DNA from: Lentzea sp. NEAU-D7
Lineage (GTDB): Bacteria > Actinomycetota > Actinomycetes > Mycobacteriales > Pseudonocardiaceae
NCBI RefSeq assembly: GCF_026242055.1
Contig: NZ_JAPJDL010000016.1
Location: 1 to 64,000, forward strand
DNA: 64,000 bases
Reading direction: 5' to 3'
Shown here: one piece after another, positions 32,236 through 44,298 of the stretch
How positions within the stretch are numbered: the first letter of the stretch is position 1
How the letters are laid out: every line of letters starts with the position of its first letter
Program-made: the position numbers and the translations under genes
The notes under the pieces: generated by a model
Database searches by the model: none
What the model was told of the DNA's origin: nothing
The model's input: the letters and a program-made list of their open reading frames with translations, nothing else

Positions 32236-32292
32236 TGCGGAAGCGGAGGGATTTGAACCCCCGGACGGTTGCCCGTCTCCCGCTTTCAAGGC
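32236..32292. other. Left attachment site (tRNA-Ser 3' remnant)
   Basis: 57 bases identical to 44212-44268, covering the T-arm, variable arm and anticodon-side 3' half of tRNA-Ser on the minus strand. Identity stops exactly at 32293, where the sequence no longer continues into a tRNA. It is therefore the element's distal att copy, not a second tRNA gene. Confidence 0.95.
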
Positions 32293-32384
32293 TGCATCTG
32301 GCTGTCCAGGCTCGTTCGGGCTAGTCCGCGGTTGTCGGTGTTGCCTGGTCAGGGGTGCTGTCCCGTCCCAACCCGTCCCGGACC

Positions 32385-32407
32385 GTTGCTACACCCGTAG
32401 CTACACC
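32385..32407. repeat. Candidate integrase arm-type site, left copy
   Basis: Two GCTACACC octamers spaced 12 bp apart within 23 bp. The same 23 bp with one mismatch, in the same orientation, occurs at 44142-44164 inside the other end. Paired copies just inside both att cores are expected for integrase/excisionase arm binding. Confidence 0.65.
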
Positions 32408-32698
32408 TCTTCCTGGTAGCTGTCCCGTCTCGCTGATCCTCGGTGGGGCGGCTTTGGCATGTCCGGTGGCCGATGACGCGGAGCGTTGGCGGGCGTCGAT
32501 CGCCGTGCCCGGCTCGGTCAGCTCTTGGATCGCGCGATCGTCCCGACGCCTGGGTGCTGGGAGCTCCTGCGCGTCGCCGTCGGTGGCGTGCTGCCGTGGA
32601 TGGACGCCGGCCGCGCCGCACGGCCGACGGGCGGAGCGAAGCGGGAGCCCGGCGTGCCGGGATGGATGGGGAGCCGGTGCCAACGTGACAGGCCCCGT

Positions 32699-32721
32699 GC
32701 GCGCCGCCGACGGCGGCGCGC
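32699..32721 (-). terminator. Possible terminator of the NACHT transcript
   Basis: An 11-bp arm palindrome (32699-32709 with 32711-32721, one central base, so in practice a 9-10-bp stem) lies about 83 bases beyond the NACHT stop. There is no T-tract. Confidence 0.45.
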
Positions 32722-32803
32722 CTTGATCCCATAGAGCCCAACTCGGCAAGAAAAGGACTACAGCAGGGACTACAGCGGGCGAGATCCGCAGGGAATCCAC
32801 CTA

Positions 32804-35743
32804 TTAAGTACCATGATTGACCGCTACTACATCCCTGACTAGGTCAACTTGTCGACTTAGCCAGCGTGACAGGAGCTCAATGACCGCCGCGTGCACGCCG
32901 AGCTCCTGCAGGTAGGACAAAATATCCTGTACTTTGCGTCCAACGTCATTTCCTGAAGCAACTAGCACGCTTCGGAATGTAGAGACTCTATTTCGACCTT
33001 CAGAAAGCAAGCCCACGACGATATTGTACTCGACATGGAAGGCGAGCAAAAGAAGGAAAAGCTCTAGTCGGGCTCCTCTTTCATCAAAGGACTCGGCGTC
33101 AGAAAAGGATCCAAGACTGAATCCAAGGTGCTTGTTAAACTGACCTAGATCCACCCAGGGTGTCGGCGCGACAAGCAAGCGATTCACAAGCTCATCGAAG
33201 TTTCCATTAGATATCCACTTTTGCCAGTCTAGATCCGTTCTGAAGCGGCCTCCTCGGAAGGACGTGAACAACGCACTTGCAATGGAGCACGCGTCACCAA
33301 AGCCGAATCGACCGTGGATAAATAGGGTTCCTAGATCATTGCGGAATAGGTATTCATTTATTCCGATTATCCCTCGCGCAACTGCGTACTCGTCGAGCCA
33401 GGGCCAGGAAGCCTCTCTGGTCACGTAGGAATTGAATTTCGCGCGCCAGTCTTCACCGACCGATTTCCAAAAATCCAAGCCTTCTCTTGAGAGAAATGAC
33501 CGAGATTGGTTCCGCTGCCTTGAGAAATCCTCAACATAAAGCGCAAAGAAGAGCGCCTTTTCTTCATCTTCCGTACCAAGTCTGCTACGAACAAGATCAA
33601 GTAGGATATCTCGGACTTTCGGCAATAGCTCAGAAGCCGCGCAAGCAACCTCGGTTATCTGAGCTCCCGAGACAAGGTGCGAATCCACCGAATTATCTTG
33701 AAGCAAGTATGCTTCGAACGCTGCAGAGACTATCTCTTTAACCAAGTCTGGCCTTGGGACAACAAAAGACAAGGATCGAGCAAGGAATGACTCGATGTTG
33801 GTCCGCTCGTCCAGATCGGCAACATGACGCTCGGATAGCAGAAGAGCCATAAAGTCATCGGCGCCGTCCTCCGCAGCTTCATTAAATAGCTGCAGGGCGA
33901 GCTGAGCTACAACGTCCCACTCCGCCTTTTTGATTTTGCTGGCAAGAAGATCATGCAAAAGAACCGCATCGCGACGGACTCGCACAATTTGGCATGCCGC
34001 GAAGTATTCGAGGAATGTTCGGTGTGTGAAACCGAATAGCGATTGACTAGGGTTCGATCCAACATCCGTCATGACCCATGCTCGGCCAGTGCAAAAATCA
34101 ACGAAACTTGTAGCCGCATTCTCAGCTTCTTCGTCGTTATCGAAGCGCTTTTCTCGAAGGTAATTCGCCATGAACTTAATCAGCGCACCCCGGGTGAGTC
34201 CTTGCTGGCGTGCAGGCGTCTCATATAGCCACAGGGCAAGTGCATAAAGCGCGAACTTAATAAGCGCATCGAACGGGAGAGGGACTACAATACTACGTTG
34301 TTTGTCCCATCGCTCAAAGAGCATTGTGGCGCATTTTTCATAGATATCGGGACGGTTTCGTGGAATATAGTTCTCGACCGAGTAGATCCCGCACATCAGT
34401 GAGAGCATGAGAGGGTTCTGCCTAAGATCTTGAACAACAATACTTTCGGCCAAGAACGATTTGGCCATTGTTTCGCTCTGGTCTGCACTCAATGATTCAT
34501 CTTGAGAGAACCATTGGCGAGCATAGGTTGACACCTGCTGATCAGAAAACTGGCCGAGTGATACTACGGGAAACAGCTCAGGGTCGAGCGGTGCTTCCTC
34601 GTACCCGATTCGGCGTGATGTTACAAGCACTGGCGTCGTAGGGTACCTATTTACAAAAGCGTGCACGGCGTCAACGACTTGAACCCGCAACGATGTGTCA
34701 ATCAGCTCGTCTAGGCCGTCAAAGATGACGAAGGCGCGCCCTGTAAGAAGCAAATATTCGATTGCGCCGTCCGGTGGGTTCAACTCGTAAGGTGAGCGAC
34801 AGAGGTCTGCAAGATGCTCCGCTATCGTTGCCTTCTTGCTTTGGAATGCAACAGCGAAATCACGGAGCACAACAACCATTGGAACGCTAGCGGAGGCGAC
34901 CTTGTGGTCTGATCCAATTGCAAGATCGTAAGCTGTTTTAAACGAGAGAGTAGATTTCCCGCCCCCCGGATCACCAAGGATCACACACCGCGTAGAACTT
35001 GCAAATATCTCCGTCAGGCTAACATGCTCACGATGAACTTCGCGTCGCTCATTATTGGAGACGAGAGCAATTCTTGGTTGTACGTAGAGTGATTCCCACG
35101 CCACTAGCTTCTTTGTCCCCCAATGTGGAAGGCGCATCTTGGAGTGGGTCGATTTGATCTGCTCTCGAAGATCACGCTCGAACTTCTCAATTTCTGCCAG
35201 AGACTTAATTGCGGAAATTACGGAACAGTCCTGATCTACGTTTGATGCTTGGCCTGCTGCAATCCTCGCGATCTCCCCAGCAGCCTGCTTAGGAAGAAAC
35301 TTGCTTAGGTGTGAGTCAGTCAGATATGAGCTAGCGTCAAGAACAATCTGCTCAACTAGAAGACTAGATGCTTCGGCACACAAGGCGTTGGAGAAAGACG
35401 GCATCTGTAGCTTCAGAAGCGCTGCTAGCTCTTTCTCCGCGTCGTAGCGCGCCTCATCGACCTGACCCGGCTTCTTCTTGATAAAGTATTCGGCGACAAT
35501 CTTCATGGCGATGCTATTGAATTCGGCTGAACGCACGAAGTTTGACAACGCGGCGGCGCCTTCAGGCTGCACACTGTCTATGAAGTTGTGCAGTCGCATG
35601 CTTGAAGGAGGGCTACTGGCCTCCTTCATTGCCTCAGTAAGCTTCCTGCGTTCACGGAAATTTACAAATGCGCTTCCGCCAACCTTAGCGACAGCCCCAC
35701 CGATCGCCTTGCTTAGAGCGCTTAGTGCAGTAACGGGTTCCAT
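32804..35743 (-). CDS. NACHT-domain STAND NTPase, candidate anti-phage defence protein
   Basis: A 979-residue protein. Residues 1-~230 are a helical N-terminal domain without recognised catalytic motifs (possibly an NNH-type NACHT N-terminal helical domain). NACHT core: Walker A LGDPGGGKST (257-265), Walker B FVIFDGLDEL (338-347), sensor VLVTSRR (372-378) and the winged-helix end GFTHRTFLEYFAA (571-583). The remaining ~400 residues are helical, not LRR-, WD40- or obvious TPR-like. NACHT STAND proteins of bacteria sense phage components and trigger defence; that role here is inference. Start ATG preceded by GGAAG; 31 bp behind the HAD gene. Visibly AT-rich, with AT-ending codons and a TAA stop, unlike the host and the AICE core, so acquired cargo. 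Confidence 0.92.
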   Translation of the reverse strand: MEPVTALSALSKAIGGAVAKVGGSAFVNFRERRKLTEAMKEASSPPSSMRLHNFIDSVQPEGAAALSNFVRSAEFNSIAMKIVAEYFIKKKPGQVDEARYDAEKELAALLKLQMPSFSNALCAEASSLLVEQIVLDASSYLTDSHLSKFLPKQAAGEIARIAAGQASNVDQDCSVISAIKSLAEIEKFERDLREQIKSTHSKMRLPHWGTKKLVAWESLYVQPRIALVSNNERREVHREHVSLTEIFASSTRCVILGDPGGGKSTLSFKTAYDLAIGSDHKVASASVPMVVVLRDFAVAFQSKKATIAEHLADLCRSPYELNPPDGAIEYLLLTGRAFVIFDGLDELIDTSLRVQVVDAVHAFVNRYPTTPVLVTSRRIGYEEAPLDPELFPVVSLGQFSDQQVSTYARQWFSQDESLSADQSETMAKSFLAESIVVQDLRQNPLMLSLMCGIYSVENYIPRNRPDIYEKCATMLFERWDKQRSIVVPLPFDALIKFALYALALWLYETPARQQGLTRGALIKFMANYLREKRFDNDEEAENAATSFVDFCTGRAWVMTDVGSNPSQSLFGFTHRTFLEYFAACQIVRVRRDAVLLHDLLASKIKKAEWDVVAQLALQLFNEAAEDGADDFMALLLSERHVADLDERTNIESFLARSLSFVVPRPDLVKEIVSAAFEAYLLQDNSVDSHLVSGAQITEVACAASELLPKVRDILLDLVRSRLGTEDEEKALFFALYVEDFSRQRNQSRSFLSREGLDFWKSVGEDWRAKFNSYVTREASWPWLDEYAVARGIIGINEYLFRNDLGTLFIHGRFGFGDACSIASALFTSFRGGRFRTDLDWQKWISNGNFDELVNRLLVAPTPWVDLGQFNKHLGFSLGSFSDAESFDERGARLELFLLLLAFHVEYNIVVGLLSEGRNRVSTFRSVLVASGNDVGRKVQDILSYLQELGVHAAVIELLSRWLSRQVDLVRDVVAVNHGT

Positions 35744-35774
35744 TTTCTTCCAAGTCTAAAAGGTTGCGGCGTAC

Positions 35775-36491
35775 CTACGACACAGGATGAATATATTCAG
35801 TTAACGTTGCCATTGAACTAACTACTGCAGTTGCGCCATGCTTGAGCAGGATGCTGTCCTTGCCAGGCTTATTTGCGTAGCCGATCACTTCTACCTGTTC
35901 CTGCTTTGCCGCGAGGACGTCATCGACCGAATCGCCGACCATTATCACCGTGTCCGCGGAAACGTTCAACCTTGTCAATGCCTGCTTGATGAGAAAGCTG
36001 CTCGGCTTAAGGAGTTCTGGGTTCGATGACTCTCGCGCTGCAATCAGCCCTACGTAGCGCACGAGATCGAACCTCTCAAGATAGCGCTGAACGGCTTGGC
36101 GGCTGTTATTGCTTACTATTGCTAATTTTCCGCCGCGCGATGTCCACGCGTGCATGAGCTTCTCGGTGCCGACCGTCGGTTCAGCTGTGGAGACCGCTTC
36201 GATCTCACAGGCTGTCAGCTCTGTCTCAATTAGATTCGCTTCAACTATTCCGAGTTTCGCGGAATGTCGAAGAATATCGAATGGATCGCTTGAGTTATTC
36301 AAATTTTCTGGTAGTCGATGACCGCGTGCGCGCAATACGTCGCGAAGATTGCCGGCGATTATTTCTGGTGAAAACTGGGCAAATACGGAGCAGACTGGTC
36401 CGTCAAAATCTAGGAAAAGTGCATTACTCTTCTTGGTAAGGCGTTGCAGCGCTGCCGGGTTGACGAGTGGTGATACTCCGCTCTTGGTCAT
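35775..36491 (-). CDS. HAD-superfamily phosphatase, coupled to GntR and NACHT genes
   Basis: The 238-residue HAD hydrolase has motif I ALFLDFDGPVC (Asp28, Asp30), motif II AIVSNNSR, motif III Lys in LLKPSSFL and motif IV VIMVGDSVDDVLAAK, all catalytic positions present. A helical C1 cap (residues ~45-120) resembles phosphoglycolate-phosphatase-like or nucleotidase members. The ATG overlaps the gntR stop (ATGA), so it is translationally coupled to the regulator. It is AT-richer than gntR and similar in base use to the NACHT gene 31 bp downstream. It might control a nucleotide or phosphorylated signal used by the NACHT protein, or be an independent cargo enzyme. Confidence 0.85.
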   Translation of the reverse strand: MTKSGVSPLVNPAALQRLTKKSNALFLDFDGPVCSVFAQFSPEIIAGNLRDVLRARGHRLPENLNNSSDPFDILRHSAKLGIVEANLIETELTACEIEAVSTAEPTVGTEKLMHAWTSRGGKLAIVSNNSRQAVQRYLERFDLVRYVGLIAARESSNPELLKPSSFLIKQALTRLNVSADTVIMVGDSVDDVLAAKQEQVEVIGYANKPGKDSILLKHGATAVVSSMATLTEYIHPVS

Positions 36492-37330
36492 CGCTTGTAC
36501 TCCACGGATACGGTGTCCCACATGGAATCGAACCACATGCGGGCTTGTTGAACGTATTGGCTGCCGGTGCTGGTGTCGTCATCGGTGACGCTGTGGTGGA
36601 AGAGAATGGCTTCTTTGCCGACTAGGTCGTAGATCGGCTTGGGTTCGCCATCGAAGCGGATGACGTGTTCGCGGACTGGGTAGAAGCCGAAGAAGGCTTC
36701 CTCGTTGTTGAGCAGGTAGAGCTTGAACAGCGGTGCGGCGCGGTGGACCTTGATCTCGACGGAGACGTCCTTGACCAGACCAAGGTCTCCGAGTTCCTGG
36801 ACGTTGTCGACGATCGCGAGTGTGTGGCGTCGCATGATCTCGTCCATGCGCTTGCGGAAGCCCGGGCTGTCCTGCAAGTCCTCGACCTGGCACGGGATCG
36901 CCCACGGCTGAGACGTGTCCGGGACGAGCATCCGGATGTTGATCGAGGCAGGTGTCAGTCGGCCGATTCGGATCTTGTCCAGCGGTTCCTGCATGACGCC
37001 TTGCAGTGTCTCGCCAGAGAAGCCGGAGAAGGCGATGGAGACGTGCTCGGCCTCGAACGCACGCTCGATGTGCGGCCGGAGTCCTACCGGGCGTTCGGTG
37101 CGCTCGCGGACGAAGACGCCGCTGCCCTGTCGGGAGACGATCAGACCTTCATCGCGCAGTTCGCGTAGCGCGTTCTGCACGGTCATCGGGGCGACTTCGT
37201 ACTTCTTCGCCAGCTCGGCGCGCGAGGGCAACTTGTCGCCGGCCTTGAACACCTTGGTGAGGATGGCAGCCCGAAGCGCGTTCGCCACCTGCATGTACGG
37301 CGGTCGCGGGTCGTCGGGGTCGAGAGCCAC
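36488..37330 (-). CDS. GntR-family repressor (KorSA-like) of the element
   Basis: A 280-residue regulator with an N-terminal winged HTH (PPYMQVANALRAAILTKVFKAGDKLPSRAELAKKYEVAPMTVQNALRELRDEGLI, residues ~10-64) and a C-terminal ligand-binding domain ending in YVQQARMWFDSMW. The C-terminal part is atypical compared with plain UTRA domains. In pSAM2 a GntR protein (KorSA) represses pra and so holds the element integrated; the divergent Pra-like gene here fits that role. GTG start with GGAGGAG. Its upstream region holds 11-bp iterons and a CTAG cluster, likely operators. Stop overlaps the HAD start. Confidence 0.9.
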   Translation of the reverse strand: MALDPDDPRPPYMQVANALRAAILTKVFKAGDKLPSRAELAKKYEVAPMTVQNALRELRDEGLIVSRQGSGVFVRERTERPVGLRPHIERAFEAEHVSIAFSGFSGETLQGVMQEPLDKIRIGRLTPASINIRMLVPDTSQPWAIPCQVEDLQDSPGFRKRMDEIMRRHTLAIVDNVQELGDLGLVKDVSVEIKVHRAAPLFKLYLLNNEEAFFGFYPVREHVIRFDGEPKPIYDLVGKEAILFHHSVTDDDTSTGSQYVQQARMWFDSMWDTVSVEYKR

Positions 37331-37343
37331 AGCTCCTCCAAGT

Positions 37344-37371
37344 GCCTACAGATCGCCTACTAAGCGCCTAC
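37344..37371. promoter_or_regulatory. Three GCCTAC iterons at 11-bp spacing (candidate operator)
   Basis: GCCTAC occurs at 37344, 37355 and 37366, exactly 11 bp apart (one helical turn), 14-41 bp upstream of the gntR start. The phasing suggests cooperative binding on one face of DNA, plausibly autoregulation by GntR. Confidence 0.5.
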
Positions 37372-37404
37372 AGGTAGACGGTACTGAGACCAGCGGGAAC
37401 CTGT

Positions 37405-37519
37405 CTAGCCCGCCTAGGGAGCTAGCTCACCTGCGAAAACCGTGAACTACTTGACCTGGCTAGACAACCTAGCTAGTTTCAAACTTGGCTAGGTTGAACA
37501 GGCGACCTAGCGGGGCTAG
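37405..37519. promoter_or_regulatory. Cluster of nine CTAG-centred motifs in the gntR/pra intergenic region
   Basis: CTAG starts at 37405, 37414, 37422, 37460, 37469, 37473, 37489, 37507 and 37516, nine times in 115 bp, where chance would give less than one. Several sit in short palindromes such as GCTAGC. They cover the likely pra promoter and are candidate repressor or replication-control sites. Confidence 0.55.
37451..37479 (+). promoter_or_regulatory. Putative promoter of the Pra-like gene
   Basis: TTGACC (37451-37456) and TAGTTT (37474-37479) are separated by 17 bp, about 54 bp upstream of the ATG at 37533, and lie inside the CTAG cluster, so a repressor bound there would block it. Confidence 0.4.
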
Positions 37520-37532
37520 GGAGGTTGCAGTC

Positions 37533-38009
37533 ATGGCGGTTCCGTACGGCACTCGCTTCGAGGCGTCGTTTGACCAGGTCTTTCCGCAGGGCGCGCTGAT
37601 GGTCGGCGTGGTCGCTCCGGACATGGAGTACATGAGCAACGAGGACAAGGCGCGCGGCAAGCAGGCCAAGCAGAAGGTCGACGAACGGTCCGGCAAGCGT
37701 CAGTGGAAGGTCGTCGTCACCGACCCGTCGGCCGAGAAGGAGCGGGACGCGTCGGTCACGATCACCGTGCTCGCGGACGTCCAGCCCGTCCCGCCTCAGG
37801 CCGTGCAGGTCATGCCCGGCGTTGAGGTCCGGCCCGTCGCGTTCGAAGGACTGACGGTCGAGCCGCGCGTCATGGGGGACCGGTTCAAGTACCAGGGCTT
37901 CACGATCCGGGCCACGGGTATCAGCGCGCCTCAGGTCGGGGCTCCGCCCAAGCGTGAGAACAAGCCTGCGGGTCAGCAGGGTCAGACCGACCAGAAGTCG
38001 GCGGCCTAA
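37533..38009 (+). CDS. Pra-like activator of replication, integration and excision
   Basis: A 158-residue protein starting MAVPYGTRFEASFDQVFPQGALMVGVV, with RQWKVVVTDPSAEKERDASVTITVLADVQP and GFTIRATGISAPQ. Proteins of this pattern head the transfer/replication operons of AICEs and are commonly annotated as plasmid replication, integration and excision activators (Pra in pSAM2). It is divergent from the GntR repressor. ATG chosen for GGGAGG eight to nine bases upstream. Function is inferred from resemblance and position. Confidence 0.65.
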   Translation: MAVPYGTRFEASFDQVFPQGALMVGVVAPDMEYMSNEDKARGKQAKQKVDERSGKRQWKVVVTDPSAEKERDASVTITVLADVQPVPPQAVQVMPGVEVRPVAFEGLTVEPRVMGDRFKYQGFTIRATGISAPQVGAPPKRENKPAGQQGQTDQKSAA

Positions 38010-39320: not shown

Positions 39321-39599
39321 ATGCATAGGGTATCTGCGCGTACCTGGGGTGCGTCAAGTCGACAGGACCGGCTCGCCGCGATGGTGGAGCGTTTGCAGGC
39401 TGTCGACACCTACACGGTGATGGTCGACGGCGGCGGGCTGGTCAGCCTCGACCTCACTCAGGCTCAGGCCGAAGGGTTCGAGTGCCTGACGTGTAAGCGC
39501 TTGTGCGGCAACGGGTTGAGCGCATTCAAGCCCGTGGGGTTCATCCCGAGTACTGGCATGGTGTTCCGCTGCGTTTCGTGCCTGGACGGTGCGGCATGA
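39321..39599 (+). CDS. Small Cys-containing AICE protein
   Basis: A 92-residue protein, MHRVSARTWGASSRQDRLAA..., with TYTVMVDGGGLVSLDLTQAQ followed by paired cysteines (CLTCKRLCGNG and FRCVSCLDG) that could bind zinc. ATG preceded by AAGGAG at nine bases. The stop overlaps the start of the transfer gene (ATGA). The 135 bp before it (39186-39320) carry no convincing gene and may hold a promoter. Confidence 0.65.
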   Translation: MHRVSARTWGASSRQDRLAAMVERLQAVDTYTVMVDGGGLVSLDLTQAQAEGFECLTCKRLCGNGLSAFKPVGFIPSTGMVFRCVSCLDGAA

Positions 39600-41056
39600 G
39601 CGGGACGAAGTGGGTCGATCCGGCTCCGTTCGAGGGTGCTCGGCCGCGTTTCCCGTGGTGGATCTGGCTTCCTCGGTGGGCGAAGGTTGTTGCGGCACCG
39701 TTCGTGCTGGCGGGGTTCGCCGTGTGGCTCGGCGTCCGCCTGGTGCTCGTCGCGGTGCGGTACCCGGTCGTGGCTGGCCTGGCTGTCGTCGGGCTCGCGG
39801 CCTATCAGAAGTTCGGGCTCTCCCCGCTCGTGCTGGCACTGCTCACGCTCGTTGCTGCGCTGCTGATCTGGTTCGGGCTCCACCAGCGGTCGTTTCTGCG
39901 GCACTGCTGGTACCGGGCGGTCACTGAGTGGCGGCGGGCCACGGTCTACGTGTCGAAATGGCGCACTGTCATGCGGCTGGCTGATCTCGCCAAGGAACAC
40001 CGGGGCAAGGAGTACCGGCCTGAGCTGCGGCGCGTCCGGGCTGAGGGCTGGCGGGACAAGGTCCGGGTACGGATGATCCCGGCGCAGTCCCCGGAGCAGT
40101 GGGAAGCGCGACGGGACAACCTGGCGCACTCCTTCAACGCTCGGTCCTGCCGGGTGCGGGTACTGAAGCCTCGGCTGCTTGAGCTCGACTTCATCCACGC
40201 TGACCCGCTGGCGCGGCCCGTGGCAGTTCCGCCGCTGGGGGATTCTGCGGACGTCGATCTGAAGAAGCTGGTCGTCGGGAGGACGGAGACCGGTAAGCCG
40301 TGGAGGTTGAAGCTGCTCGGCTCTCAGATCCTTGTCGTCGGCGTCCCTGGCGCGGGTAAGGGCTCGGTGCTCTGGTCGATCGTCTGGCAGCTCGCCCCCG
40401 CGATTCGCGCCGGCCTGGTTCGGCTCGTCGGCATCGACCCCAAGGGCGGGATGGAACTCGGCCAGTGTCCTGACGCCTTCGACAAAGTCGTCTACGACAA
40501 CGGGCCGGAAGCCGTTGAACTGCTGGAAGAGATCGCAGCGGAGGTCAAGGCTCGCGCTTCGAGGTACCGGGGCGTTCGTCGGCTCTGGACTCGGAACGCC
40601 GGTGAGCCGTTCACGGTCCTGGTGGTCGACGAGTTGGCGGACCTCGTCGCCTACCAGCAGGACAAGCAGCTCCGGGAACGTGCCGGGCGTGCTGTCCAGA
40701 CGATCAGCTCGCAGGGACGCGCTCCCGGAGTGGCCACGGTCGCCCTGGTGCAGGACCCGCGCAAGGAAGTCGTGAGCTTTCGGCACCTGTTCACCACTCG
40801 GGTGGCGCTGCGCCTGGACGAGCCGATTCAGGTGGACATGGTCCTGGGCGACGGCGTTCGGCAGCGTGGCGCGGCTGCTCATGAGATCAGCGAGAGCACG
40901 CCTGGTGTCGCCTGGCTCAAAGAGGACGGGCAGCGCGAACCGGAACGCGCGAGGGCCTTCCACGTCACGGACGCGGACCTGGTCGAGTTGGGCGTCTACT
41001 TCGCCCCGGCCACCGTTCACGACTTCCCGGCAAGCAGCGAGCGGAGGGCAGCATGA
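39596..41056 (+). CDS. FtsK/SpoIIIE-like conjugal DNA translocase (TraB/TraSA type)
   Basis: A 486-residue protein with two to three N-terminal membrane helices (residues ~30-100), a linker, and an FtsK-type motor: Walker A VVGVPGAGKGS, VGIDPKGGMELG, Walker B VLVVDELADLV and ISSQGRAPGVATVALVQDP. In AICEs such a single ATPase forms a hexameric pore that moves double-stranded DNA between hyphae, without relaxase or type IV machinery. ATG overlaps the upstream stop, and its own stop overlaps the rep start (ATGA), forming one coupled operon. Confidence 0.92.
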   Translation: MSGTKWVDPAPFEGARPRFPWWIWLPRWAKVVAAPFVLAGFAVWLGVRLVLVAVRYPVVAGLAVVGLAAYQKFGLSPLVLALLTLVAALLIWFGLHQRSFLRHCWYRAVTEWRRATVYVSKWRTVMRLADLAKEHRGKEYRPELRRVRAEGWRDKVRVRMIPAQSPEQWEARRDNLAHSFNARSCRVRVLKPRLLELDFIHADPLARPVAVPPLGDSADVDLKKLVVGRTETGKPWRLKLLGSQILVVGVPGAGKGSVLWSIVWQLAPAIRAGLVRLVGIDPKGGMELGQCPDAFDKVVYDNGPEAVELLEEIAAEVKARASRYRGVRRLWTRNAGEPFTVLVVDELADLVAYQQDKQLRERAGRAVQTISSQGRAPGVATVALVQDPRKEVVSFRHLFTTRVALRLDEPIQVDMVLGDGVRQRGAAAHEISESTPGVAWLKEDGQREPERARAFHVTDADLVELGVYFAPATVHDFPASSERRAA

Positions 41057-42663
41057 GCACGAACGTCACCACGTTTCCCGGCGATGTTGCAGGCCAGACC
41101 CGCGCGGAACGGATGAGGCAGCCTGCCGCGCTCGACGTCACCAAGGCTGCCGCCGAGCAGCACGGCGTGTGCGTCCGGCCGTTCACGATGGAAGTCGAAG
41201 ACCACGAGTCCTACGAGGTTCGGTACGTCGCGGTGCCGTGTGGCTCGACGGTGGAGAGCGTCTGCAAGCCCTGCGCCAAGAAAGCCAAGGCCTTGCGGAT
41301 GGCTCAGTGCCGCGAAGGCTGGCACATGGAGGTGGAGCCCGACTTCACCCCGGAACCGCCCACAAAGGACCAGACGGAGCTGCTGGAGTACCGCGCTGAC
41401 CTCATGAAGGCCTTCAAGGAGGAGGGCAGCTCGGCTGAGGCGGACGAACTGCGGGAGGAGATCCACAGCGTCGACGAAGAACTTCGGCAACTCGGCGTCC
41501 GTGGTCGCCTGCCCTCACCGGACGATCCCGGCAAGCGGCCCGTGAAGCGCTCGACGAAGCGTCGGCAGGATGCGCCGGACCTGCCTCGGCGGCGCGTGGA
41601 GAGGCGGACGGTTGGACGGGAGTTCGCGGGAGCCTTCCGTCCCTCGATGTTCGTGACGCTCACCCTCGACACCTACGGCAAGGTGCGCGACGACGGCACG
41701 CCCGTTGACCCGGACAGCTACGACTACCGCCGTGCGGCAAGGGATGCGGTCCACTTCGCGTCGCTCGTTGACCGGTGGTGGCAGAACCTGCGGCGGGTGG
41801 CTGGCTGGGACGTCCAGTACTTCGCCACGGTCGAGCCTCAGAAACGCGCCGCTCCGCACCTGCACGCAGCACTCCGCGGTTCGATCCCTCACGAGGTCAT
41901 TCGGCTGGTCACGGCGGCTACCTACCACCAGGTGTGGTGGCCGAAGCACGACGAACGCGTCTACGTGGACCGGCTGCCGGTCTGGGACTTCGATCTCAAG
42001 GCGTTCATCGACCCGGACACCAGAAAGGCCCTGACCACCTGGGAAGACGCGGAGGTCGAGGAACCGGCGCACGTCGCGAAGTTCGGGCGGCAGGTGCACT
42101 CCAAGGGCATCCTCGGCGGCTCCGAGGAATCTGGGCGACACATCGGTTACCTGACGAAGTACCTCACGAAGTCCATTGGTGAGGTGGTCGAGCAGGACAA
42201 CGAACGGCAACGCCGGCATGCGGACCGCCTGGCGGACGAGTTGGCCGTCACGCCGTGCTCGGATCGATGCGCGAATTGGCTGCTCTACGCCGTCATGCCT
42301 CGAGGCGCCAACTCGCGGATGACGGCTGGACGGTGCAAGGGGAGGGCTCACCGCAGGGCCACGCTCGGGCTGCCTGGGCGGCGGGTTCTGGTGTCCCGCA
42401 AGTGGTCAGGGAAGACGCTCGCGGACCACAAGGCTGACCGGAAGCGCTTCGTCCTCCAGGCGCTCAAAGCAGTGGGGATCGAGAAGCCAGAGAAGGACCC
42501 GGCACGGCTCGTCTGGCACAAGGTGCGGCCTGGTGATCCGAACGTGCCGCCACGGGCGCACCTGCTCATGCATGCGATCGCTCAACGCGTGACGTGGAAG
42601 GCCGAGTACGACCGCGCGCTGCTCGCGGCCGGGCCTCCAGATCTTTCGGCAACTGCGGCCTGA
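41053..42663 (+). CDS. RepSA-type replication initiator (HUH rolling-circle)
   Basis: The 536-residue initiator has a Cys pair near residue 75 (CKPCAKKAKALRMAQC), FRPSMFVTLTLDTYGKV, the HUH metal motif APHLHAALRG, and GYLTKYLTKSIGE with the likely nicking tyrosine. This is the RepSA family, which replicates the excised AICE circle by rolling circle. A second Cys cluster lies at TPCSDRCANWLLYAV. ATG overlaps the stop of the transfer gene. xis and int follow on the same strand. Confidence 0.92.
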   Translation: MSTNVTTFPGDVAGQTRAERMRQPAALDVTKAAAEQHGVCVRPFTMEVEDHESYEVRYVAVPCGSTVESVCKPCAKKAKALRMAQCREGWHMEVEPDFTPEPPTKDQTELLEYRADLMKAFKEEGSSAEADELREEIHSVDEELRQLGVRGRLPSPDDPGKRPVKRSTKRRQDAPDLPRRRVERRTVGREFAGAFRPSMFVTLTLDTYGKVRDDGTPVDPDSYDYRRAARDAVHFASLVDRWWQNLRRVAGWDVQYFATVEPQKRAAPHLHAALRGSIPHEVIRLVTAATYHQVWWPKHDERVYVDRLPVWDFDLKAFIDPDTRKALTTWEDAEVEEPAHVAKFGRQVHSKGILGGSEESGRHIGYLTKYLTKSIGEVVEQDNERQRRHADRLADELAVTPCSDRCANWLLYAVMPRGANSRMTAGRCKGRAHRRATLGLPGRRVLVSRKWSGKTLADHKADRKRFVLQALKAVGIEKPEKDPARLVWHKVRPGDPNVPPRAHLLMHAIAQRVTWKAEYDRALLAAGPPDLSATAA

Positions 42664-42680
42664 TCAACCAAGGGGAAGAC

Positions 42681-42860
42681 ATGAACGACATCGCGTATCG
42701 CGTTGAGGAAGTCGCTCGGGCCCTTCGGGTGGGGCGGACGAAGGTGTTCGACTTGATCAGGGCTGGTGAGCTGGTGTCCGTCAAGATCGGCGGGAGTCGT
42801 CGGGTTCCGGCCTCGTCGGTGCAGGCATACCTGTCTCGGCTGATCGCTGAGGCGGCGTGA
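42681..42860 (+). CDS. xis: Excisionase (MerR/AlpA-type HTH)
   Basis: A 59-residue protein, essentially one winged helix: DIAYRVEEVARALRVGRTKVFDLIRAGELVSVKIGGSRRVPASSVQAYL. This is the excisionase/DNA-binding domain family paired with AICE integrases, directing Int toward excision. AGGGGAA precedes the ATG, and the stop overlaps the int start, giving the usual xis-int coupling. Confidence 0.93.
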   Translation: MNDIAYRVEEVARALRVGRTKVFDLIRAGELVSVKIGGSRRVPASSVQAYLSRLIAEAA

Positions 42861-44137
42861 TGGCCGGGGGCAAGCGGTCCAACGGTGAGGGCTCGGTCTA
42901 CCAGCGCAAGGACGGGCTGTGGGTCGGCGCGGCCTACGTGCTCACCACGACCGGGCATCGCAAGCGCGTCACTGTTTCGGCAACCACGGAGTCGGAGGCC
43001 TGGAAGAAGCTCAGGAAGAAGATCGCCGACTCCGACGCCGGCATCCCGGTAGCTGCGGAGACGTGGACGCTGGAGAGCTATCTCAAGTACTGGCTGTCCA
43101 CTGTGGCCGCGACGAAGAGGCCTCGGACGGTCGAGGGGTACGGCGTGGTCGTGCGGCGGCACCTGGTGCCCAACCTCGGGACGAAGAAGCTCCATCGGTT
43201 GTCGGCGCAGGACGTCCGGACGTTCATCACGCGGCTTCGGAACGATTGCCGGTGCTGCGCGGAGAAGATCGACGCCAACCGGCCGAAGGATGCTCGACGT
43301 TGCTGTGCCAAGGGGAAGTGCTGCAAGACGGTTCTTTCCGACCGAACGATTCAACAGATCCACGCTGTTCTGCGGAATGCGCTGGCGCACGCAATGCGGG
43401 AGGAGGTCGTGCCGCGCAACGTCGCCCGGCTTGTTCAGGTCAGGTCGCCTCGGTACGACGTGAATCGGGGCCTGGACGCTGATCAGGCAAAGGCGCTACT
43501 CAAGGCAGCGGAAAACGATCGACTGAAGGCGCTGTACGTCCTGGCGCTCTACCTCGGAATGCGACGCGGTGAGTTGCTCGGCCTTCGATGGAAAGACATC
43601 GACTGGGACAAGTGGGACGAGCCGTGCGCCGAACATGCGGATGACTTCTGCGAGGACTGCGCGGGGCAGCACTTCCCGACGTTGCAGATCCGCCAGACGC
43701 TTCAGCGGGTGGGTACGAAGCTCGTGTTCGTCCCGCCGAAGACGGACCGGTCAGAGCGGGTCATGCCGCTGCCGCTCCTCGTCGCCTGGGCGCTGGTCGA
43801 TCACTGGGACGGCCAGGACGACGAAGCGGAAGCGGCAGGGGACAGGTGGGAGGAGTCGGGGCTGATCTTCGCGACGGTCCTCGGTGGGCCGATCGATCCG
43901 ACCTACCTGAGGTCGAGTTGGTACCCGATCCGGAAGCGCGCCGGCCTGGAAAACGTGCGCTTTCACGACATCCGGCACTCGTGCGTGACGCTGCTGCTCA
44001 GGCTCGGCGTGCCGCCGCACATCGTCCGAGACATCGTCGGCCACTCGAATATTGAGGTGACGATGATGATCTACGCGGCCGTCTCCCTTGAGGACAAGCG
44101 GGAGGCCTTGAAGCGGCTCACGGACGAGCTGGGCTGA
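42857..44137 (+). CDS. int: Tyrosine recombinase integrase
   Basis: A 426-residue integrase (425 from the ATG at 42860) with an N-terminal arm-binding AP2-like part (GEGSVYQRKDGLWVGAAYV), a SAM-like core-binding domain and a C-terminal catalytic domain with YLGMRRGELLGLRWKDIDW (first Arg), HDIRHSCVTLLLRLG (HxxR), GHSNIEVT and the nucleophile Tyr in MMIYA. Two Cys-rich inserts (around CRCCAEKID...CCAKGKCC and CAEHADDFCEDC) suggest a zinc-stabilised loop. It lies 76 bp from the tRNA-Ser gene used as attachment site. Confidence 0.97.
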   Translation: MMAGGKRSNGEGSVYQRKDGLWVGAAYVLTTTGHRKRVTVSATTESEAWKKLRKKIADSDAGIPVAAETWTLESYLKYWLSTVAATKRPRTVEGYGVVVRRHLVPNLGTKKLHRLSAQDVRTFITRLRNDCRCCAEKIDANRPKDARRCCAKGKCCKTVLSDRTIQQIHAVLRNALAHAMREEVVPRNVARLVQVRSPRYDVNRGLDADQAKALLKAAENDRLKALYVLALYLGMRRGELLGLRWKDIDWDKWDEPCAEHADDFCEDCAGQHFPTLQIRQTLQRVGTKLVFVPPKTDRSERVMPLPLLVAWALVDHWDGQDDEAEAAGDRWEESGLIFATVLGGPIDPTYLRSSWYPIRKRAGLENVRFHDIRHSCVTLLLRLGVPPHIVRDIVGHSNIEVTMMIYAAVSLEDKREALKRLTDELG

Positions 44138-44141
44138 GGTC

Positions 44142-44164
44142 GTTGCTACACCCGTTGCTACACC
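44142..44164. repeat. Candidate integrase arm-type site, right copy
   Basis: Two GCTACACC octamers 12 bp apart in 23 bp, matching 32385-32407 with one mismatch and the same orientation, 47 bp inside the right att core. Confidence 0.65.
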
Positions 44165-44211: not shown

Positions 44212-44268
44212 TGCGGAAGCGGAGGGATTTGAACCCCCGGACGGTTGCCCGTCTCCCGCTTTCAAGGC
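44212..44268. other. Right attachment site within tRNA-Ser
   Basis: The 57-bp repeat identical to 32236-32292. It covers the 3' end through the anticodon arm of tRNA-Ser, so integration leaves the tRNA intact, the standard strategy of tRNA-targeting integrases. Confidence 0.95.
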
Positions 44269-44298
44269 GGGTGCATTCGGCCGCTCTGCCACGCTTCC
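44214..44298 (-). tRNA. tRNA-Ser (anticodon UGA)
   Basis: On the minus strand the 85-base gene starts GGAAGCG and pairs with CGCTTCC before a G discriminator. The anticodon loop reads CTTGAAA (UGA), there is a class II long variable arm (GACGGGCAACCGTC), and the T-loop is GTTCAAATC. CCA is not encoded. It is the integration target of the AICE. Confidence 0.97.

Follow-up and report, generated by a model that had tools for sequence, protein, structure and literature searches.

A GntR–HAD pair ahead of an exchangeable cargo slot, occupied by a predicted NACHT STAND gene, in an integrative element of Lentzea sp. NEAU-D7

Results

The GntR–HAD pair

The window analysed here, 64,000 nucleotides of Lentzea sp. 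NEAU-D7 (assembly GCF_026242055.1, contig NZ_JAPJDL010000016.1), holds an actinomycete integrative and conjugative element (AICE) of ~12 kb, with a complete gene set, integrated in a tRNA-Ser gene. Divergent from its transfer genes, a minus-strand set encodes a GntR-type regulator, a HAD phosphatase and a NACHT protein. We consider it probable (about 0.7) that GntR and HAD constitute a regulatory chassis and that NACHT is a standalone, exchangeable defence cargo in the variable end of the AICE. An earlier interpretation of the same DNA from its letters alone (hereafter, the sequence-only reading) had proposed that HAD and NACHT act as a two-gene defence system. It placed HAD exactly, 31 bp ahead of NACHT, and rightly credited it with all catalytic Asp residues; it overlooked the overlap between the HAD start codon and the end of the GntR gene (36488-37330).

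The HAD start codon lies within the GntR stop codon (ATGA, a 4-nt overlap), and the gene order is thus GntR-HAD-NACHT. GntR was found in 35 out of 298 genomes of the order, and HAD lies directly behind it at 34 of the 35 other GntR places (some copies are broken; the exception is locus L104). The HAD alignment, run against GTDB species genomes, yielded 293 relatives; among the best 80 of these, which were taken on, GntR is directly upstream at 70. The 4-nt xTGA overlap recurs at 68 of these 70 loci and at 30 of the 34 from the order, and over all GntR–HAD loci at 93 of 99 distinct ones (98 of 104 before five duplicates were dropped). As far as gene neighbourhood can tell, HAD is a standing partner of GntR regardless of cargo.

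The HAD gene (ATG to TAG) encodes the four catalytic motifs of a class IA HAD phosphatase: DFDGP at residue 28, SNN at 127, KP at 162 and GDSVDD at 186. Residues D28, D30, S127, K162, G186, D187 and D191 are invariant in 63 aligned sequences, and the first motif also holds an invariant cysteine (DFDGPxC). The structural model (pLDDT 95.4) resembles capped small-molecule phosphatases, its matches including predicted phosphoglycolate phosphatases and a pyrophosphatase (TM-score to the query 0.55–0.67 among the 50 matches listed), and inspection of the model suggests a C1-type cap.

Further genes adjoin HAD at some loci. Nudix genes encoding 157–170 aa start 19–164 bp behind HAD on the same strand in L129, L138, L144 and L190; the order is GntR-HAD-Nudix in L129 and L138, and no GntR was detected in L144 and L190. 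In L123, L128 and L193, the gene for a related protein of 270–275 aa has a 4-nt overlap with the HAD stop, and the L123 copy matches APH-type phosphotransferases.

Exchange of the segment behind GntR

Sibling elements with a common backbone occupy the same tRNA-Ser gene in Lentzea (L116, L120, L134, L136 and L140) and Saccharothrix (L119). Across the window and the four closest Lentzea elements, identity is 95–97% for GntR, 94–97% for Rep and 91–96% for the integrase, and 41–53% for HAD. In all seven related elements aligned, the DNA match to the window breaks off at the GntR stop codon (36480-36488), and in six of the seven it resumes at 32748-32758, ~50 bp past the NACHT stop; the contig of the seventh, L118, ends early. 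Thus, the segment exchanged between siblings consists of HAD and NACHT. Two short matches inside HAD are present in L120.

Two accounts of the HAD divergence were discarded. Fast evolution alone fits poorly, because in six Lentzea pairs HAD synonymous sites are saturated or nearly so (proportion of synonymous differences, pS, 0.69–0.81) while the synonymous rate (dS) of GntR is moderate (0.35–0.49); replacement of HAD fits better. A HAD that is plain chassis and never moves with cargo is refuted in the Lentzea group, in which the swap begins at the HAD start.

The G+C content of NACHT and HAD is 0.507 and 0.515, compared with 0.625 in GntR, 0.65–0.70 in the other element genes and 0.690 in the flanks, and third-position G+C drops from 0.83 in GntR to 0.54 in HAD at their junction. 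The AT-richness of both genes relative to host and AICE core, a point of the sequence-only reading, is therefore real (51% versus 69% G+C in the flanks). Across 88 loci, retained from 115 (110 distinct) by requiring the 4-nt overlap and a sufficient length, the G+C content of HAD follows that of the cargo once GntR and upstream DNA are accounted for (partial r 0.52, p 2e-7); GntR shows no such correlation with the cargo (r -0.16, p 0.15). Furthermore, in 8 of 14 further related pairs, homology covers both GntR and HAD, does not extend past the end of HAD and is followed by no later block; the HADs of these eight pairs are 76–84% identical and stand ahead of unrelated DNA (just 665 bp behind HAD in L084, at least 3.6 kb in the others).

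Content of the cargo slot

The two attachment (att) copies were located at 45 of the 115 loci, leaving 42 slots after removal of duplicates. These hold 134 called open reading frames (ORFs), of which 87 (at least 180 aa, G+C below 0.70) were scanned. They matched 334 PADLOC models at E<=1e-5, a figure that is not a protein count because the models are redundant. A random draw of 87 out of 268 flanking ORFs matched six models, although these flanks are GC-rich and were processed with the same simple ORF caller, so that spurious ORFs may depress the control count.

Among the Lentzea siblings, the cargo consists of GmrSD and HEPN (L116), AAA_21/15 (L120), a methylase with HATPase (L136) and a marginal N6-methylase match with MBL and HATPase (L134); that of L140 was counted in tallies only. 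Other delimited slots contain DarT and a macro-domain protein (L089), RloB and AAA_21 (L099), SUKH and AAA_21 (L080), and a ParA-like ATPase next to a protein whose HEPN match falls below the threshold (L078). Where the slot is not delimited, GntR–HAD is followed by a methylase and HSDR_N (L133), a methylase and DUF2357/PDDEXK_7 (L077) or a TPR-GreABC-associated PIN protein (L090). The Pfam scan gave no match for both L119 cargo ORFs, two ORFs of L083 and two of L093. Judging from its gene content, the cargo between the GntR–HAD operon and the att arm is exchangeable and is often defence- or toxin-antitoxin-like. Of the 41 other slots with both ends placed, 30 have their longest called ORF antisense to HAD and 10 have it on the same strand; one slot has no ORF.

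A cargo gene at 10843-13206 of L139, with sub-threshold matches to AAA_16 and nucleoside deoxyribosyltransferase, is a STAND-like candidate. Moreover, L099, L103 and L105 are short islands between att copies, comprising GntR–HAD and cargo with no Rep or Tra detected by tblastn; they are possibly decayed or mobilisable forms.

The NACHT protein and its relatives

The NACHT gene (ATG to TAA) is preceded by the ribosome-binding-like GGAAGAAA. Its product scores 48.7 bits against Pfam NACHT (cut-off 26.7) and carries Walker A (GDPGGGKS) at residue 257, Walker B (VIFDGLDEL) at 339 and the winged-helix-type motif HRTFLEYFAA at 574, with most motif positions invariant among nine aligned sequences. 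The 979-aa protein with intact Walker motifs and a winged-helix-type end that the sequence-only reading described is thereby confirmed, and a NACHT domain with both Walker motifs places it among NACHT STAND NTPases; its assignment to the class of anti-phage sensors appears correct at the level of sequence. The Pfam scan recognised no domain outside residues 242–413, and the C-terminus is poorly conserved in the alignment of relatives. A sequence search of the PDB gave nothing at E<=0.1, and the score against the EruA model (NCBIfam NF058535) is 31.8 bits versus a cut-off of 1000. Viral contigs yielded no relatives with the single protein as query and five, at ~25% identity, with an alignment as query.

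Relatives of NACHT are found in 27 out of 298 genomes of the order at E<=1e-20 and in 6 out of 394 genomes of the class at E<=1e-40, the source genome included in both counts. A profile search detected no HAD or GntR of these families near any of 33 such loci, comprising 29 of the 32 other places from the order search and four new ones from the class search; flanks were longer at 12 loci (up to ~10 kb; L266 is a 5.5-kb contig) and ~1.5 kb at 21. Recurring HAD–NACHT neighbours, sought on the strength of the sequence-only reading, thus did not appear at any of the 33 loci, 21 of them with these short flanks. In eight of the loci (L106-L113), most common neighbours come from the syntenic pairs L107/L109 and L111/L113, and the remaining ones (L108/L113 and two weak ones) include no common partner gene. 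In genome G290, a NACHT relative lies ~1.4 Mb away from the genome's own broken GntR–HAD locus. Only two other GntR–HAD loci were seen with NACHT-like sequence, namely, L127, with a gene of 23% identity, antisense and ~1.4 kb behind HAD, and L075, with an antisense fragment.

A UvrD-like helicase gene lies upstream of two NACHT relatives, at a distance of 3 bp in L107 (6796-9045) and 84 bp in L109 (6549-8840); its identity derives from the scan of L107, to whose copy that of L109 is 82% identical. The relative in L108 has an N-terminal helix-turn-helix (HTH)-like stretch, recognised by eye.

The GntR regulator and its candidate operators

The winged helix of GntR, characteristic of the KorSA/HutC type, scores 69 bits (cut-off 27). 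The UTRA ligand domain is absent from the 12 Pfam families matched by the window protein at E<=0.1, and its C-terminal 195 residues contain no Pfam domain; the putative sensor domain is placed at residues 84-280. In 51 GntR relatives, the only non-DNA-binding family is a weak TetR_C_7, present in two members (among the 25 of 37 families listed). The structural model is confident (pLDDT 90, pTM 0.69), and its Foldseek matches of 207–323 columns include F13, phosphatidylserine synthase and TrmBL2, an archaeal regulator, which we take to be proteins of the phospholipase D (PLD) superfamily or PLD-like. These matches suggest a PLD-like C-terminal domain. Their low whole-chain TM-scores (0.30–0.36) speak against such a fold, as does VIA-align, which returned for the same model only winged-helix/HTH matches at residues 1–81.

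In the divergent intergenic region, the repeats CTAGACA and AGCTAGC are present in 15 and 16, respectively, of 17 elements compared, and provide candidate GntR operators (Table 1). A scan with a longer CTAG motif found no occurrence in L095.

Anatomy of the element

The window element has the hallmarks of an AICE: a tyrosine integrase with 57-nt repeats at a tRNA-Ser gene, an excisionase, a RepSA-type replication initiator and a single translocase of the FtsK type (Table 1), for which the match to TraB is weak and far below the cut-off. In agreement with the sequence-only reading, the cargo occupies the distal end of a complete AICE. Inward from the tRNA gene, the integrase, excisionase, RepSA and translocase genes and several small conserved genes follow one another on the plus strand. 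Past the distal att copy, chromosomal DNA aligns at 88–93% to the Lentzea contigs L116, L120 and L136. The source genome has four RepSA matches (contigs C8, C23 and C43 and one more place) and perhaps several AICEs, yet a single GntR–HAD module at the thresholds used.

Table 1. Features of the AICE in the window
Feature	Position	Strand	Basis
Distal att copy, 57 nt	32236..32292		Perfect direct repeat with 44212-44268
Conserved distal arm region	32293..32803		Alignment to six siblings; identity resumes at 32748-32758
Arm-type repeat, 24 nt	32384-32407		96% match to 44141-44164
Predicted NACHT STAND protein, 979 aa; exchangeable cargo gene	32804..35743	-	Pfam NACHT 48.7 bits and motifs
Predicted HAD class IA phosphatase, 238 aa; second gene of GntR operon	35775..36491	-	Pfam HAD_2, catalytic residues, model
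GntR-type regulator, 280 aa	36488..37330	-	Pfam GntR 69 bits; fold suggests PLD-like C-terminal domain
Divergent intergenic region with conserved CTAG repeats	37331..37532		Comparison of 17 elements
Candidate GntR operators	37476-37460, 37408-37402	-	Conserved CTAG repeats
First gene of divergent transfer-side set	37533..38009	+	53–97% identity to copies in ten related elements; start picked by eye from the alignment
Small conserved AICE gene, 88 aa	38012..38278	+	tblastn matches in siblings
Small AICE gene, 91 aa	38275..38550	+	Present in some siblings
Small AICE gene, 143 aa	38541..38972	+	Present in some siblings
FtsK/SpoIIIE-type DNA translocase (Tra)	39503..41056	+	Pfam FtsK_SpoIIIE 35.7 bits (cut-off 24)
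RepSA replication initiator	41053..42663	+	Pfam RepSA 339.5 bits (cut-off 34)
Excisionase	42594..42860	+	TIGR01764 45.1 bits (cut-off 28.8)
Tyrosine integrase	42857..44137	+	Pfam Phage_integrase 90.4 bits
Integrase-side att copy, in tRNA-Ser 3' end	44212..44268		Perfect 57-nt repeat
tRNA-Ser	44213-44298	-	att copy within 3' end

Discussion

A regulatory chassis with exchangeable cargo

In the reading that we favour, GntR would be a repressor, perhaps with a PLD-like sensor domain, whose translation is coupled to that of a small-molecule HAD phosphatase. GntR, HAD and NACHT would share one transcript, autorepressed through the CTAG repeats. NACHT entered the slot along with its HAD allele, probably via recombination between the conserved flanks. 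We propose only tentatively that HAD makes or removes a phosphorylated ligand read by GntR; the PLD-like domain might then act as a non-enzymatic sensor that binds the ligand handled by the coupled phosphatase. Our guess is that HAD acts on a ligand of GntR rather than on one of NACHT. NACHT, for its part, somewhat more probably than not senses infection by itself and stops growth.

Several observations weigh against this reading. GntR was not detected by tblastn at 10 of the 80 best HAD loci, two of which have weak remnants. The G+C contents of HAD and GntR are also correlated with each other (rho 0.40), and HAD is AT-richer than GntR in only 47 out of 88 loci, so that AT-richness is no general trait of HAD. 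In six of the 14 further related pairs, homology continues or resumes past HAD (L138/L071, L123/L126, L076/L077, L180/L089, L075/L076 and L174/L186). The ratio of nonsynonymous to synonymous rates (dN/dS), defined for HAD in 20 of 25 pairs with GntR at least 95% identical, is 0.14–0.28 in HAD and 0.01–0.08 in GntR, which is odd for a plain partner. Some of the cargo is not defence-like, such as an alpha/beta hydrolase (L103) and a sugar transporter; the redundancy of the PADLOC models tempers the count of 334; and NACHT itself goes unrecognised, as no PADLOC family matched NACHT or HAD at E<=0.1. Finally, HAD G+C and the swap boundary link HAD to the cargo in the Lentzea lineage and leave room for cooperation between the two.

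Alternative roles of HAD and NACHT

It is very unlikely that HAD and NACHT form a dedicated two-gene defence system whose phosphatase removes a nucleotide signal or an activating ligand of NACHT. Although the two genes lie on the same strand with a gap of 31 bp, share an AT-rich composition and are swapped together, and although HAD G+C follows that of the cargo, HAD is absent from all 33 loci with NACHT relatives, these show no common partner beyond plain synteny, and the longest ORF is antisense to HAD in 30 of 41 other slots. A conserved HAD–NACHT pair was rejected on the same 33 loci and on the position of HAD behind GntR irrespective of cargo. The unit seen by the sequence-only reading survives insofar as it is exactly the segment swapped among siblings; as a dedicated system it is not supported, because HAD partners GntR whatever the cargo, and by its genomic context the pair is probably not one. 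HAD could instead be a generic partner of cargo, for example, a brake that silences a loaded defence gene during transfer or establishment. Its constant place at the head of a varying slot, the co-swap and the G+C correlation with cargo agree with such a role, but the cargo is very diverse for one phosphatase and much of it is antisense to the operon, and we regard this as decidedly unlikely.

It is possible, if fairly unlikely, that HAD is a conjugal-immunity (entry-exclusion) factor, the functional counterpart of the pSAM2 protein Pif, a Nudix protein that, according to a passage of PMC3218068, prevents redundant transfer; we judge in the same way the corollary that HAD alleles diversify since a new allele admits the element into cells holding a sibling. 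Consistent with immunity, HAD sits in the operon of the regulator, its catalytic residues are invariant and yet HADs of 41–53% identity stand beside ~95% identical GntRs, its dN/dS is raised, and Nudix genes are found right behind it in L129, L138, L144 and L190. Moreover, Nudix boxes are present in 15 of 60 other RepSA regions versus 4 of 48 GntR–HAD regions with Rep/Tra (p 0.04), a comparison of whole regions of up to 20 kb in which the 60 are the listed top RepSA matches and hence a non-random set. However, HAD and Nudix occur together in some elements, the boxes were detected by a strict regular expression, the one in L083, ~410 bp behind HAD, overlaps another ORF call, dN/dS is far under 1, and HAD replacement could be hitchhiking with cargo. 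Outright replacement of Nudix/Pif by HAD is weakened, because Nudix genes follow HAD in some elements; none of the 60 other RepSA regions has GntR directly followed by a Nudix gene.

As for NACHT, it may target other mobile elements or regulate the host, rather than act on phages. The lack of a PADLOC match, the weak EruA match (31.8 of 1000 bits), the N- and C-terminal parts without Pfam domains and the HTH-like N-terminus of the L108 relative point in this direction, but slot cargo matches many defence models and NACHT STAND proteins with measured anti-phage activity are described in part of PMC12169576, making this role rather unlikely. We hold it equally improbable that a widespread actinobacterial module combines a GntR bearing a PLD-like sensor with a ligand-processing HAD, the HAD allele being an immunity tag while the cargo protects the host. 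If that were true, HAD allele and defence cargo would be swapped as one cassette, setting immunity between siblings.

Under the favoured reading of a GntR–HAD chassis with exchangeable cargo, NACHT alone is one more STAND candidate, and its context adds more. In elements from many actinobacterial genera, the chassis points to a cargo slot rich in defence genes, and uncharacterised slot genes are therefore defence candidates by position. The fixed pairing of a phosphatase with a GntR repressor suggests a phosphorylated small molecule as signal in these elements and offers a handle on the open question of the KorSA effector. Furthermore, because near-identical elements differ in their HAD allele, allele-specific conjugal immunity can be tested directly.

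Comparison with known systems

Phages and satellites combine a fixed mobile chassis with interchangeable defence cargo. The same design is described for Tn7-like transposons (PMC8649781); here, by contrast, the chassis is an AICE and the slot lies between the GntR–HAD operon and the att arm. Variable AICE cargo including restriction-modification and AIPR genes is mentioned in part of PMC9513070, and defence systems of Actinobacteria on mobile elements in part of PMC10482375. Among the matches listed for open-licence PMC main texts, we found no description of a GntR–HAD pair in AICEs or of a defence slot behind it.

The NACHT protein resembles bNACHT/Avs-type STAND proteins, of which anti-phage members are reported in sections of PMC12169576, in its NACHT ATPase, intact Walker motifs and winged-helix-type motif, but differs from them in having no PADLOC match and no recognised effector or repeat sensor. 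HAD and Pif are both small AICE hydrolases; Pif is the Nudix conjugal-immunity factor of pSAM2 in the relevant passage of PMC3218068, and Nudix genes in AICEs together with Pif immunity are reported in parts of that source and of PMC11706625, whereas HAD has a HAD fold and matches HAD-type families only, with no Nudix domain or motif. KorSA, the kil-kor repressor of pSAM2, whose effector molecule is not identified according to a passage of PMC8584621, shares with the window GntR the winged helix, the AICE setting and presumed autorepression, but the latter has no UTRA among the 12 Pfam families listed. Overall, the element agrees with pSAM2-type AICEs in tRNA integration, tyrosine integrase, excisionase, RepSA, FtsK-type Tra and GntR regulator, and departs from them in a GntR C-terminus without UTRA and with a PLD-like hint, a coupled HAD and a distal slot for defence cargo.

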